From NCBI GenBank assembly GCA_026418175.1, contig JAOABX010000004.1:62001-126000 (forward strand): DNA of 64,000 nucleotides, read 5' to 3'. The notes under the pieces are model-generated. The model did not search any database. It worked only from the letters and a program-made list of their open reading frames with translations, and was not told the DNA's origin. This DNA is from Flavobacteriales bacterium. Lineage in GTDB: Bacteria > Bacteroidota > Bacteroidia > CAIKAF01. Below are positions 42,390 through 47,278 of the stretch, piece after piece; within the stretch, counting starts at the first letter, position 1, and the number at the start of each line of letters is the position of its first letter. The translations under genes and the position numbers were made by a program.

Positions 42390-43971
42390 AGATTATATAA
42401 TATTTTTCTTAATTATCTCAGCTTTTCAGCTGGAACTGTTGGCCCAAGCCGATACAGTTTGGACCAGAAGTTATGGTGGCTCATCTGATGAGGCAGTAGG
42501 GCTTTCGTTGATGAATAATTTTGGATCTCCAGGATTAAATCTGGATGTAAATGGCAATGGTATATTTTTTACTTCTTCCAGTTTATCCAGTGATGGATTA
42601 GTACGGGCTAATTATGGCAGTGAAGATGTATGGGTAGTAAAGTTAGATCATAATGGGGATACCCTTTGGAGTAAAATATTGGGTGGCTCTGATTTTGATA
42701 GGCCTTCTTCAATTAAAGCATTGGCGGATGGTAGTTGTGTAATAGCCGGAAGAACTTTAAGCAATAATGGTTTTTTTGTGGGTAATCACGGAGGTTATGA
42801 TGGTTTTGTGGTTAGATTGGATGACAATGGGAATGTTTTGTGGAAAAAATTGTATGGTGGTTCTGAAATGGATTATTTGTATGATGTAATATGGACCTCT
42901 GATAATCATTTGTTGGTTTGTGGCGAAACAGGTTCAAATGATGGGGATTTGGCAGGTACAGGAACAGGTTTATCATGGGTTATGAAACTCAATGCTTCGA
43001 ATGGAAATATTCTGTGGAGCAAAACATATGTTGGACCCAATGGAAATTTTTCCGATGCGTTAGAAAATTTTTATCGAATACTTGAACTACATGATGGCAG
43101 TGGTTATGTAGCCGCTGGATATACAGTGGCAGATTTTAATAATATCAATGGAGATGATATTTACATTCATAAAATAGATACTGGCGGGCAGTCTGTATGG
43201 TTTAAAAAAGTTGGTTCAACGAATGGCGGAGAAGGGTTGGGAGGTCTTGCAAATGCTAAACATGGGGCTTTCTATATAGCCGGAAGATTAGCCGGTGATC
43301 AAGGTAACGATGTAACTGATGGTTATCATGGAGGAAATAGTGATGTGTGGTTATTAAAAATTGATACTTATGGAAATAAACTATGGGATAAAAGTTTTGG
43401 AGGAACAGATTGGGAGTTTGCCTACGATATTTCTGTAGATTCAATGGGATACGTTTATTTAGGTGGCTTTACCCGTAGCACTAATAACGATGCCTCAGAT
43501 CCAGGTTTTGGTTTGCAGGATTTTTGGGTAATAAAAACAGATTCTGCTGGAAATATGGTTTGGAATAAAAAAATGGGTGGCTCTCAAAATGATGTATTGC
43601 ATGCCTTAAAAATTTATCATCATCAAATCATTGTCATGGGAAGAACCAATTCTTCTGATGCCTGGATACATCATTCCTGGGGAGGCCGCGATATTTGGGT
43701 GGCTAAACTACTACAAGCTGATGGATTAAATATTGGCGAATCAAAGGGAATTAGATTCTGTTTGTTTCCTAATCCGGGTTTTGATATCATACAATTATTC
43801 ACAGAGCAACCAATTAAGTACTGGGAATTATTTACGGTAAATGGTATCAAGGTCAATTATTCCAATTCGCAGTATATGCATGTAATTAATTTGCCGCAAG
43901 GAGTCTATTTTGCCAACGTTTTGTTATGTAATGGCAAAACAATCCATCAAAAAATAATAGTTGCTAAATAA
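42373..43971 (+). CDS. T9SS type A cargo with beta-propeller repeats
   Basis: A 532-residue protein from ATG 42373 (adjacent ATG at 42370), with a signal ending LELLAQA. The propeller repeats have the pattern VWVVKLDHNGDTLWSKILGG, FVVRLDDNGNVLWKKLYGG, VWLLKIDTYGNKLWDKSFGG, WVIKTDSAGNMVWNKKMGG. The C terminus (FPNPGFDIIQLF ... LPQGVYFANVLLCNGKTI ... KIIVAK) is a type A sorting domain. Its end overlaps the convergent oxidase gene by 8 bases. Ligand unknown. Confidence 0.87.
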   Translation: MCQQIRDYIIFFLIISAFQLELLAQADTVWTRSYGGSSDEAVGLSLMNNFGSPGLNLDVNGNGIFFTSSSLSSDGLVRANYGSEDVWVVKLDHNGDTLWSKILGGSDFDRPSSIKALADGSCVIAGRTLSNNGFFVGNHGGYDGFVVRLDDNGNVLWKKLYGGSEMDYLYDVIWTSDNHLLVCGETGSNDGDLAGTGTGLSWVMKLNASNGNILWSKTYVGPNGNFSDALENFYRILELHDGSGYVAAGYTVADFNNINGDDIYIHKIDTGGQSVWFKKVGSTNGGEGLGGLANAKHGAFYIAGRLAGDQGNDVTDGYHGGNSDVWLLKIDTYGNKLWDKSFGGTDWEFAYDISVDSMGYVYLGGFTRSTNNDASDPGFGLQDFWVIKTDSAGNMVWNKKMGGSQNDVLHALKIYHHQIIVMGRTNSSDAWIHHSWGGRDIWVAKLLQADGLNIGESKGIRFCLFPNPGFDIIQLFTEQPIKYWELFTVNGIKVNYSNSQYMHVINLPQGVYFANVLLCNGKTIHQKIIVAK

Positions 43972-45295
43972 TTTCCAGTCGTTCTGATTGCAACGAACTT
44001 ATTATATGTGGATTGATAGTTCTGATTCGATCAATAAAGGAGGAAGCTTGCGGATAGGTATGAAGCAAAAAATGAGGTTTCATTCGTACATCCTTGGTGA
44101 GATAAACCCTGCCACCATATTTTAATACAATTTCATCCATTTCATCCAAAAATTTCCATAGCGAAGGTTGAATTTTAAAATCCATTGCTAATGTCCATCC
44201 TTCCATAGGAAACCGGATATAATTTTCTTTCTGCTTTCCGAATAACTTTAGTACTGTTAGAAACGAACCCATATTTTTTTTGCCAATGTGGCCAATAAGT
44301 TCAATTAATCCTTCACGCCCTTTTTCACGGGGAATAACAAACTGGTATTGTGTAAATCCTTTTTTACCATAAATTCGATTCCAATGATGGATCGCATCTA
44401 ACGGATAAAAAAAACTATCATAATGTATAATGTTTTTAATTTCTTTGGTTGTTTGTTTGTGATAATACAAAAAATTAAATGCTTTTACGCTAAAACTATT
44501 CAATACAAACGAAGGAAAATAAAAAGGCACATTCAGCTTGCCGTCGCTATGCACTTTTAAAGGCAGCTTTCTTTGTTTTTGTGAAAGTTCATTCAACATG
44601 GCATTCTCTCCTCGCATCATAATACTTCGACCAAAACTTTTCCCTTTACTCAGGCAGTCAATCCATGCCATGCTATACGTCCAATTTGCTGATTCTTCAA
44701 ACAACCGAATAACTTCATCTAGATTGGCAGCTTTGATATTTTCTTGTCGGATAAAAGCAGTTTCAATTTTTTTTAGTTTAAAACATACATCGGTAATAAT
44801 ACCTGTTAGACCCATTCCACCGCAGGTTAAATGAAACAAATCCTGATTTTCTTCACGACTGCAACGCATTTTTTGCCCATTGGGTAAAATAAGATGGAAG
44901 AAAAGTACATGGTCTGAAAAAGTACCTTCTTTGTGATGATTTTTCCCATGTACGTCTGATGCTAAAGCTCCACCACACGTTACAAACTTGGTGCCCGGTG
45001 TAACTGGTAAAAACCACCCCTTGGGAACAAAAATTTTTAATATTTCATCAAAACTAACACCTGCCTGGCAATGGAGTATTCCATGTTGCTCATCAAAAGC
45101 TAAAAAATGATTGAGTTTAGAGGTAGAAATGATATGCGTTTGCAAAGCAGAATCTCCATAACATCTGCCTAATCCACGAGGTATTAATTTTTGATTTTTA
45201 TTCAGGACATCAATTATTGCATCTTCATTCCCCGGAGCCACTATTTCTGCGTCAATCCATGGATAGTTCCCCCAATTTGCAATACTGGCTTTCAT
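43964..45295 (-). CDS. DprE1-like FAD-dependent decaprenylphosphoryl-ribose oxidase
   Basis: A 443-residue FAD oxidoreductase close to mycobacterial DprE1 (oxidises decaprenylphosphoryl-ribose to the 2-keto form). FAD-domain motifs are RGLGRCYGDSA (about 40-50), PVTPGTKFVTCGGALASDVHG and HGKNHHKEGTFSDHV. The C-terminal domain has YPLDAIHHWNRIYG, TQYQFVIP, LKLFG and YLTKDVRM. By alignment position the mycobacterial Cys387 is Ala370 and Lys418 is Lys401. The paired prenyl-phosphate transferase gene is 8 bp upstream on the same strand. Confidence 0.88.
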   Translation of the reverse strand: MKASIANWGNYPWIDAEIVAPGNEDAIIDVLNKNQKLIPRGLGRCYGDSALQTHIISTSKLNHFLAFDEQHGILHCQAGVSFDEILKIFVPKGWFLPVTPGTKFVTCGGALASDVHGKNHHKEGTFSDHVLFFHLILPNGQKMRCSREENQDLFHLTCGGMGLTGIITDVCFKLKKIETAFIRQENIKAANLDEVIRLFEESANWTYSMAWIDCLSKGKSFGRSIMMRGENAMLNELSQKQRKLPLKVHSDGKLNVPFYFPSFVLNSFSVKAFNFLYYHKQTTKEIKNIIHYDSFFYPLDAIHHWNRIYGKKGFTQYQFVIPREKGREGLIELIGHIGKKNMGSFLTVLKLFGKQKENYIRFPMEGWTLAMDFKIQPSLWKFLDEMDEIVLKYGGRVYLTKDVRMKPHFLLHTYPQASSFIDRIRTINPHIISSLQSERLEII

Positions 45296-45303
45296 GTAGT
45301 GCT

Positions 45304-46182
45304 TTATAACTTATGAATATAAATGATGAGAAAAAACGTGAATATCCAACCTAACAAAACCAATTGAATAAATCGGTCGCTCAATAGCATTTTGGTTGGG
45401 TTGCCGCTTTTGTTTAATACAAAGGTAATTTGCAGGTATCGAATAATTCCTAATATAACAAAAATGCTGGTGGCGTATAGATATTCAGTATGAAAACGTT
45501 CCACTACTTCTTCGCTTATAGTGTACATAATGTAAGCCACAATTACTACAGCTGCCATAATCACCATGGATGCATTAATAAATTCTAAGTTATAGCCATC
45601 AACCGATTTGCGCATTTTTTGTCCGCTTTTCATAAAGAGAATTACATCATCTCTACGTTTGGCCATCCCTAAAAACAATGCCAGAAGAAATGTCATTATA
45701 ATTATCCAATGTGAAATATAAACTTCGGCCAATAATCCACCGGCAATAACTCGAAGTAAAAATCCAATGGCGATAATAGTAATATCGATAATTGCTACAT
45801 GCTTTAACCCCATGGAGTAAGCTATATTCATGAGAAAATAAATAGCAAGTACACCGGCAAAAAATAGGTTAATAAAATATGCACCGATCAATGAGCCGAT
45901 AAAAAATATGGAACTAAGTAATATGCCTGTTGTTATAGAAACTTCGCCCGAGGCAAATGGCCGATGTTTTTTTTCAGGGTGAAGCCTATCTGATTCAATG
46001 TCTTTAATATCATTGATTATATAAATAGATGAAGCAATGAGTGAAAAGAGAACAAAACCCATACTCACCTGTATAAAGCCATGTACATCGGAGAGTATAT
46101 TCCCGCTGAAAAATAGGGGTAAAAAAATGAATAGATTTTTAACCCAATGCGAAACTCGTAATAATTTAAAATACAGCTTCAT
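45304..46182 (-). CDS. decaprenyl-phosphate phosphoribosyltransferase (UbiA family)
   Basis: A 292-residue UbiA-superfamily integral-membrane transferase. The motif NDIKDIESDRLHPEKKHRP (about 57-75) gives the Asp-rich Mg2+/phosphate site with the HP-x-K-x2-RP pattern of DPPR synthase (Rv3806c), which joins PRPP to decaprenyl phosphate. Eight or nine helices are expected. The ATG at 46182 is preferred over a TTG at 46191. Together with the DprE1-like gene it makes two steps of a decaprenylphosphoryl-arabinose-type route. Confidence 0.87.
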   Translation of the reverse strand: MKLYFKLLRVSHWVKNLFIFLPLFFSGNILSDVHGFIQVSMGFVLFSLIASSIYIINDIKDIESDRLHPEKKHRPFASGEVSITTGILLSSIFFIGSLIGAYFINLFFAGVLAIYFLMNIAYSMGLKHVAIIDITIIAIGFLLRVIAGGLLAEVYISHWIIIMTFLLALFLGMAKRRDDVILFMKSGQKMRKSVDGYNLEFINASMVIMAAVVIVAYIMYTISEEVVERFHTEYLYATSIFVILGIIRYLQITFVLNKSGNPTKMLLSDRFIQLVLLGWIFTFFLIIYIHKL

Positions 46183-46234
46183 GCTGCACAATAGTTTTCT
46201 TTTGTAGTTTTGTAATCATCAGTTTACAAAATAA

Positions 46235-47278
46235 GTGAAAAAAGTTTTAATAACAGGAACTGCTGGATTCATAGGCTATCATCTCACTCAAAAGATGCTT
46301 GCTTCCGGGTATGAAGTGGTAGGCGTTGATAATGTAAATGATTATTATGATGTAAACCTCAAATGGAGTAGGTTACAACTGCTTGGGATTCATCGAGCCA
46401 ATGCTGTTAAAGGCAGTTTGATTTCTTCCGGAAATTTTCATTTTTCTTACACAGATATTGCAGATACTGAGGCTATGATGAAGCTTTTTGACGAACATCG
46501 TTTTGATGGAGTGATTCATTTAGCAGCTCAGGCTGGTGTTAGGTATTCATTAATTAATCCTGCAGCATACATACACAGTAACGTTTCTGGATTCTTATCT
46601 GTGCTGGAAGCATGCAAGGTTTACCCTGTAAAGCATTTGGTATATGCAAGCACATCATCGGTGTATGGATTAAATACTCGTGTACCTTTTCAGGTGTCAC
46701 AACATACGGATCACCCTATGAGTTTATATGCTGCCACCAAAAAAAGCAATGAACTTATGGCGCATGCATACAGTCATCTGTATCAAATACCAACTACCGG
46801 TATTCGTTTTTTTAGTGTATATGGGCCTTGGGGTAGGCCGGATATGGCCTTATTTATTTTTACTAAGAATATTCTGGAAGGTAAGCCCATTCAGGTATTC
46901 AATCACGGAAATATGAAACGTGATTTTACTTATGTAGATGATATTGTAAACGGGGTAATGCGTGTATTGTTAAAACCACCCGTAGCCCAACCAAATTGGA
47001 CAGATGAAGAAAATCCATCTACCTCGTCAGCACCTTATCGCTTAGTAAACATTGGTAATAATAATCCTGTAAACCTCATGGATTTTATTCGCGAAATTGA
47101 AATAAATACAGGGAAGCAGGCAATCATAAAATATCTACCCATGCAGCCTGGCGATGTGCCTATGAATGTGGCTGATGTAACTGATTTGGTGAACGAATAC
47201 AACTACAAGCCCTCAATCACAGTGAAGGAAGGAGTGGCATCTTTTGTAAATTGGTATAGGGAATATTATCAAATATAA
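46235..47278 (+). CDS. NAD-dependent epimerase (UDP-glucuronate 4-epimerase-like)
   Basis: A 347-residue extended SDR with a GTG start at 46235. GTAGFIGYHLTQK is the NAD site, STSSVYG and YAATKKSNELMAHAYSHLY carry the catalytic Ser/Tyr/Lys, and FFSVYGPWGRPDMALF is the LpsL/CapI-type substrate loop. It would interconvert UDP-glucuronate and UDP-galacturonate for surface polysaccharide. The -7 box TAGTTTTG is at 46205-46212. It is divergent from the UbiA gene and followed 1 bp later by DUF4403. Confidence 0.9.
   Translation: MKKVLITGTAGFIGYHLTQKMLASGYEVVGVDNVNDYYDVNLKWSRLQLLGIHRANAVKGSLISSGNFHFSYTDIADTEAMMKLFDEHRFDGVIHLAAQAGVRYSLINPAAYIHSNVSGFLSVLEACKVYPVKHLVYASTSSVYGLNTRVPFQVSQHTDHPMSLYAATKKSNELMAHAYSHLYQIPTTGIRFFSVYGPWGRPDMALFIFTKNILEGKPIQVFNHGNMKRDFTYVDDIVNGVMRVLLKPPVAQPNWTDEENPSTSSAPYRLVNIGNNNPVNLMDFIREIEINTGKQAIIKYLPMQPGDVPMNVADVTDLVNEYNYKPSITVKEGVASFVNWYREYYQI

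Follow-up and report, generated by a model that had tools for sequence, protein, structure and literature searches.

The window, the 64,000-nucleotide stretch of DNA analyzed here (G000:C44:62001-126000 of a 2.68-Mb assembly that is 99.7% complete), carries a pair of genes that very probably encode steps 1 and 3 in the synthesis of a lipid-linked D-arabinofuranose (D-Araf) donor. Both genes lie on the minus strand. The first (45304-46191, 295 aa from a TTG start) is predicted to encode a UbiA-fold phosphoribosyltransferase of the Rv3806c/DPPR-synthase (DPPRS) family, and the second (43964-45295, 443 aa) is predicted to encode an FAD-linked polyprenyl-phospho-ribose 2′-oxidase of the DprE1 family, with a stop-to-start gap of 8 bp between them. 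An alternative ATG start at 46182, where the initial annotation ended the pair, would give a DPPRS of 292 aa. That annotation had described a two-gene unit of a DprE1-like oxidase and a DPPR-synthase-like UbiA protein, and this is what we observe: the DprE1 homologue matches the DprE1 structures in the PDB over its full length with an E value of 3.5e-85 (phmmer), and the DPPRS matches Rv3806c (PDB 8j8j) with an E value of 4.9e-45, both values lying far outside what chance would give.

At E≤0.001, the DPPRS has PDB relatives only among the entries for decaprenyl-phosphate phosphoribosyltransferase. Its best curated family, NF008977 (decaprenyl-phosphate phosphoribosyltransferase), scores 245.1 bits and passes the cut-off of 234, and NF008978 scores 215 bits with a cut-off of 207. 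The PRPP and Mg2+ ligands of Rv3806c have been described (PMC10994848), and of the 13 Rv3806c positions that we checked, a set that includes these ligands, 11 are identical in the window protein (NDxxDxxxD, R12, K18, Y57, K74, R77, Y125, and K130). The two changes are Y157 to F144 and Q135 to N122, the latter replacing with Asn the Gln135 that contacts ribose O3. Public annotation already names one Bacteroidota DPPRS of this kind.

The statement in the initial annotation that DprE2 and a DPPR phosphatase are not visible is correct for the window and does not extend to the genome, where we found homologues of both. From all the adh_short matches, i.e., the SDR genes of the genome, a DprE2 homologue was picked at G000:C44:28488-29219, a locus that shares its contig with the window pair and lies ∼77 kb away from it. 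It scores 321.8 bits with NF005489, passing the cut-off of 267, and 207 bits with the DprE2 model NF053786, missing the cut-off of 250, and its best PDB match is DprE2 (21gq_C, 5e-32), with the next match at 1.8e-14. Five other SDRs that were scored fit DprE2 less well and were rejected, the best NF005489 score listed for them being 96 bits versus 322. A HAD-IB phosphatase homologue, whose substrate assignment is putative, lies on a different contig (G000:C33:186452-187093) and is 45% identical (E value of 5e-55) to the HAD protein encoded after DprE2 in the cassette of a relative. These two homologues lend weight to the earlier proposal of a keto-sugar or arabinose lipid donor. The four donor genes are thus spread over three places in the genome and do not form one operon.

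The usual gene order in relatives, including Bacteroidota, is a single cluster, DPPRS-DprE1-DprE2-HAD. Within five genes of the DprE1 homologue, DprE2 was present in 64 and DPPRS in 59 of the 72 named loci scored. Among 296 sampled genomes of the phylum, 64 had DprE1, 61 had a strong DprE2 match, and 59 had both, leaving unpaired five genomes with DprE1 but without a strong DprE2 and two with DprE2 but without DprE1. DprE2 therefore occurs in 59/64 genomes with DprE1 versus 2/232 of the others (Fisher P of 1e-53, uncorrected for kinship). Within the taxonomic family of the window, DPPRS, DprE1, and DprE2 are adjacent in three genomes (G306, G307, and G308) and nearly so in a fourth (G301), while they are split in differing ways in the genus of the window and in G303, G304, and G300. 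One family member (G299) has none of the four genes, and every other member searched has DPPRS, DprE1, and DprE2. Since clustered and variously split versions coexist within one family, the scattering is most simply explained by the rearrangement of one pathway. Scattering of the cassette over three places is unusual; a Gram-negative pentofuranose donor pathway is of a kind already known.

The presence of DprE2 and HAD homologues in the genome, together with the co-occurrence of DprE1 and DprE2, makes a polyprenyl-phospho-D-Araf donor the best reading of the pair. The UbiA-fold enzyme would transfer 5-phosphoribose from PRPP to a polyprenyl phosphate, probably undecaprenyl phosphate, and the HAD-IB phosphatase encoded on C33 would then remove the 5′-phosphate. 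The DprE1-type flavoenzyme of the window would oxidize the 2′-hydroxyl to a ketone. Reduction of this ketone on its opposite face by the DprE2-type SDR encoded on C44 would then yield polyprenyl-phospho-D-arabinofuranose. A flippase would export the lipid-linked D-Araf, and a GT-C-type membrane enzyme would add D-Araf to a surface glycan in the periplasm. This scheme draws on gene families, conserved residues, clustering, and co-occurrence, from which we infer the reactions, the lipid, the order of the steps, the flippase, the transferase, and the acceptor.

The route could stop short of this product, yielding lipid-linked ribofuranose, a 2-keto sugar, or some other pentofuranose, for example xylofuranose, with the DprE1/E2 pair acting in a different epimerization. 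A related pathway in Citrobacter youngae gives ribofuranose or xylofuranose, the sugar being set by the epimerase present (PMC11127046), and the DprE1 and DprE2 homologues both score under their NCBI equivalog cut-offs (418.8 of 500 bits over the full length for NF053785, and the 207 of 250 given above). We nevertheless consider this rather unlikely, given that DprE1/E2 homologues accompany Araf-containing glycans in Gram-negative bacteria whereas the epimerase of xylofuranose systems is a different one that resembles GalE (PMC11127046), and that the substrate-pocket residues of DprE1 are conserved and its specific partner DprE2 co-occurs with it.

The score with NF053785 supports membership of the window protein in the DprE1 family as judged by its sequence and does not grant it equivalog status. 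The AlphaFold2 model of the protein has a mean pLDDT of 93.5, and ranks 1 to 49 of its Foldseek matches in the PDB are all DprE1, with E values from 1e-47 to 1e-33. By alignment with checked numbering, His132, Lys418, and Cys387 of M. tuberculosis DprE1 correspond to His116, Lys401, and Ala370, and the two proteins are identical at H132, K418, Y60, K367, Q334, and Q336. Across 128 homologues, no variation is seen at H132, K418, Y60, W230, K367, Q334, D389, or Y415, and a single homologue departs from Q336; since the catalytic and pocket residues hardly vary, the enzyme retains the catalytic site. The FAD_binding_4 domain is shared with aldonolactone (gulono- or galactonolactone) oxidases and other oxidases of the VAO family, and there are weak matches to lactone oxidase models. 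It is, however, very improbable that the window protein is one of these, only loosely related to DprE1: the lactone oxidase matches are partial and N-terminal while the DprE1 match spans the full length, the first lactone dehydrogenase follows the 49 DprE1 structures among the fold matches at 9e-24 and 14% identity, a DPPR synthase is linked to the gene, and DprE2 is encoded in the same genome. An aldonolactone oxidase identity was rejected on the fold ranking and the extent of the matches.

The initial annotation had placed Ala370 at Cys387 and Lys401 at Lys418, both with an offset of 17, and our alignment agrees. It had also read the Ala as a replacement of the drug-target Cys, and here the polarity is wrong. 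At the Cys387 position, the 128 homologues outside Actinomycetota, a set made up of 80 named genome-collection loci, neighborhood loci from the phylum of the window and its relatives, and the window itself, have 117 Ala, 10 Thr, 1 Ser, and no Cys. The sample was gathered by similarity to the window protein and is therefore poor in remote homologues, and it included only two actinobacterial sequences. The sole homologue with an apparent Cys (L181) was an open reading frame-calling artifact, and the corrected residue is Ala. As only Ala, Thr, and Ser are seen in these homologues, Cys is, on the sequences compared, a special state of the actinobacterial branch and Ala the normal one outside it.

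Natural benzothiazinone resistance has been attributed to a Cys-to-Ala change in M. avium and to a Cys-to-Ser change in M. aurum (PMC3206020), the M. avium case being reported also in PMC3035642. The window protein thus resembles M. avium DprE1, in which Ala at the Cys387 position is likewise tied to natural resistance (PMC3206020), although in M. avium Ala is an exception within a Cys-bearing group, whereas in the window protein it is the normal state of the group. By analogy with M. avium, there is sound reason not to expect covalent trapping by nitro-benzothiazinones of an enzyme with Ala370.

The description of the pair as mycobacterial type in a Bacteroidota did not hold up either. The family is widespread, with members in Bacteroidota, Pseudomonadota, Campylobacterota, and Cyanobacteria, among other groups, and no Emb-type enzyme was found in the genome. 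A DprE1 tree was built by a quick method; it has long branches for mycobacteria and some other groups, and the miscalled L181 sequence was kept in it as a further long branch. In this tree the window protein clusters with the majority of the sequences from its taxonomic family, and mycobacterial DprE1 is set apart on a long branch of its own, which makes a recent transfer from mycobacteria unlikely. Although the best-characterized relatives are actinobacterial, import from mycobacteria or their relatives with loss of the Cys here is thus extremely improbable, given this tree and the 0 of 128 nonactinobacterial homologues with Cys.

"Decaprenyl" in the initial annotation is best taken as a family name, as undecaprenol or undecaprenyl phosphate is the typical lipid carrier in Gram-negative bacteria (PMC11127046), and the carrier here is probably undecaprenol. 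That annotation had also proposed a genome search for DprE2 and arabinosyltransferase homologues. The first was found; no Emb-type (PF04602) arabinosyltransferase was found in the genome, with a positive control in Corynebacterium glutamicum. Directly upstream of the DprE2 gene, on the minus strand, is a gene for a 447-aa membrane protein (G000:C44:29274-30617; L018:11274-12617), which we consider a weak candidate for the D-Araf transferase. It has no Pfam or NCBIfam match, and its profile matched neither the GT-C of the Chitinophagaceae cassette nor any PDB sequence; its homologues in G307 and G308 (∼25% identity) adjoin an NAD-dependent epimerase-like gene. We propose, quite tentatively, that it represents a new GT-C family that adds D-Araf to an undescribed Bacteroidota surface glycan with the donor made from the three loci.

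A multihelix family is encoded beside the cassette in Chitinophagaceae and Cyclobacteriaceae (L104:3262-4968, minus strand, with relatives in L108, L111, L112, L113, L130, and L140). The member scanned (L058) had no convincing Pfam match, and the model of a Chitinophagaceae cassette-linked protein, which has a low pLDDT of 69, counts ArnT, OST, ALG12, Pmt4, AftA, and Emb among its top matches. On this model, the protein resembles a GT-C and the family is a candidate for arabinofuranosyltransferases. A search of the genome of the window for this GT-C of the Chitinophagaceae cassette found no homologue.

The genome thus shares with the mycobacterial DPA pathway (Rv3806c, Rv3807c, DprE1/Rv3790, and DprE2/Rv3791) a homologous DPPR synthase, oxidase, and reductase and common active-site residues, including H132 and K418 of DprE1. 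It differs from that pathway in having a HAD-IB phosphatase where mycobacteria have the unrelated Rv3807c, Ala in place of Cys387, no Emb found, three loci, and probably undecaprenol as carrier. The Gram-negative three-component pentofuranose systems (PMC11127046) likewise derive polyprenyl-phosphoribose from PRPP with a UbiA-fold synthase and have a HAD-family phosphatase, and the Araf systems among them have DprE1/E2 homologues, as here. In Citrobacter youngae O1/O2, ORF15 is a fusion, whereas here the HAD is a separate protein, and the Citrobacter-type system has a MATE flippase and GT136. The cassette of Bacteroidota such as Chryseobacterium and Chitinophagaceae has the same four families, with about half of the DprE1 residues identical, but is a single cluster there and lies in three places here. 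In the literature library searched, we found no paper on the Bacteroidota cassette and no biochemistry from any Bacteroidota, which does not disprove their existence elsewhere.

These results do not overturn known biology, since a 2024 study (PMC11127046) already describes Gram-negative pathways of this kind. They indicate that the D-arabinose donor pathway targeted by tuberculosis drugs is common in Bacteroidota and other Gram-negative bacteria, without the benzothiazinone-reactive Cys, which bears on drug selectivity and natural resistance and on where the D-arabinan broken down by Bacteroidota enzymes might come from.

Divergent from the DPPRS gene is a gene for an NAD-dependent sugar epimerase/dehydratase (46235-47278, plus strand; best PDB match 5u4q, E value of 4.8e-129). 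The same divergent pair occurs in eight relatives of the same taxonomic family, and G303 keeps it although its DPPRS and DprE1 sit on different contigs. Given this adjacency, the epimerase/dehydratase may possibly feed the same glycan as DPPRS and DprE1. A scan for promoters and terminators and a repeat search gave nothing of note.

The cassette takes other forms elsewhere. In other lineages the DPPRS is longer, with an apparent N-terminal HAD domain in the one case inspected, and in Rhizobium a GtrA-family protein is encoded between DPPRS and DprE1. Three genomes of one genus (G013, at locus L071; G034; and G131) have a DprE1 homologue without a strong DprE2 match; the L071 homologue is divergent, has Thr at the Cys387 position, and is adjoined by a HAD gene. 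In a member of the Flammeovirgaceae (L209; CP139022.1), a DPPRS-oxidase-SDR cassette lies on a 53.6-kb Bacteroidota plasmid, so plasmids can carry the cassette.
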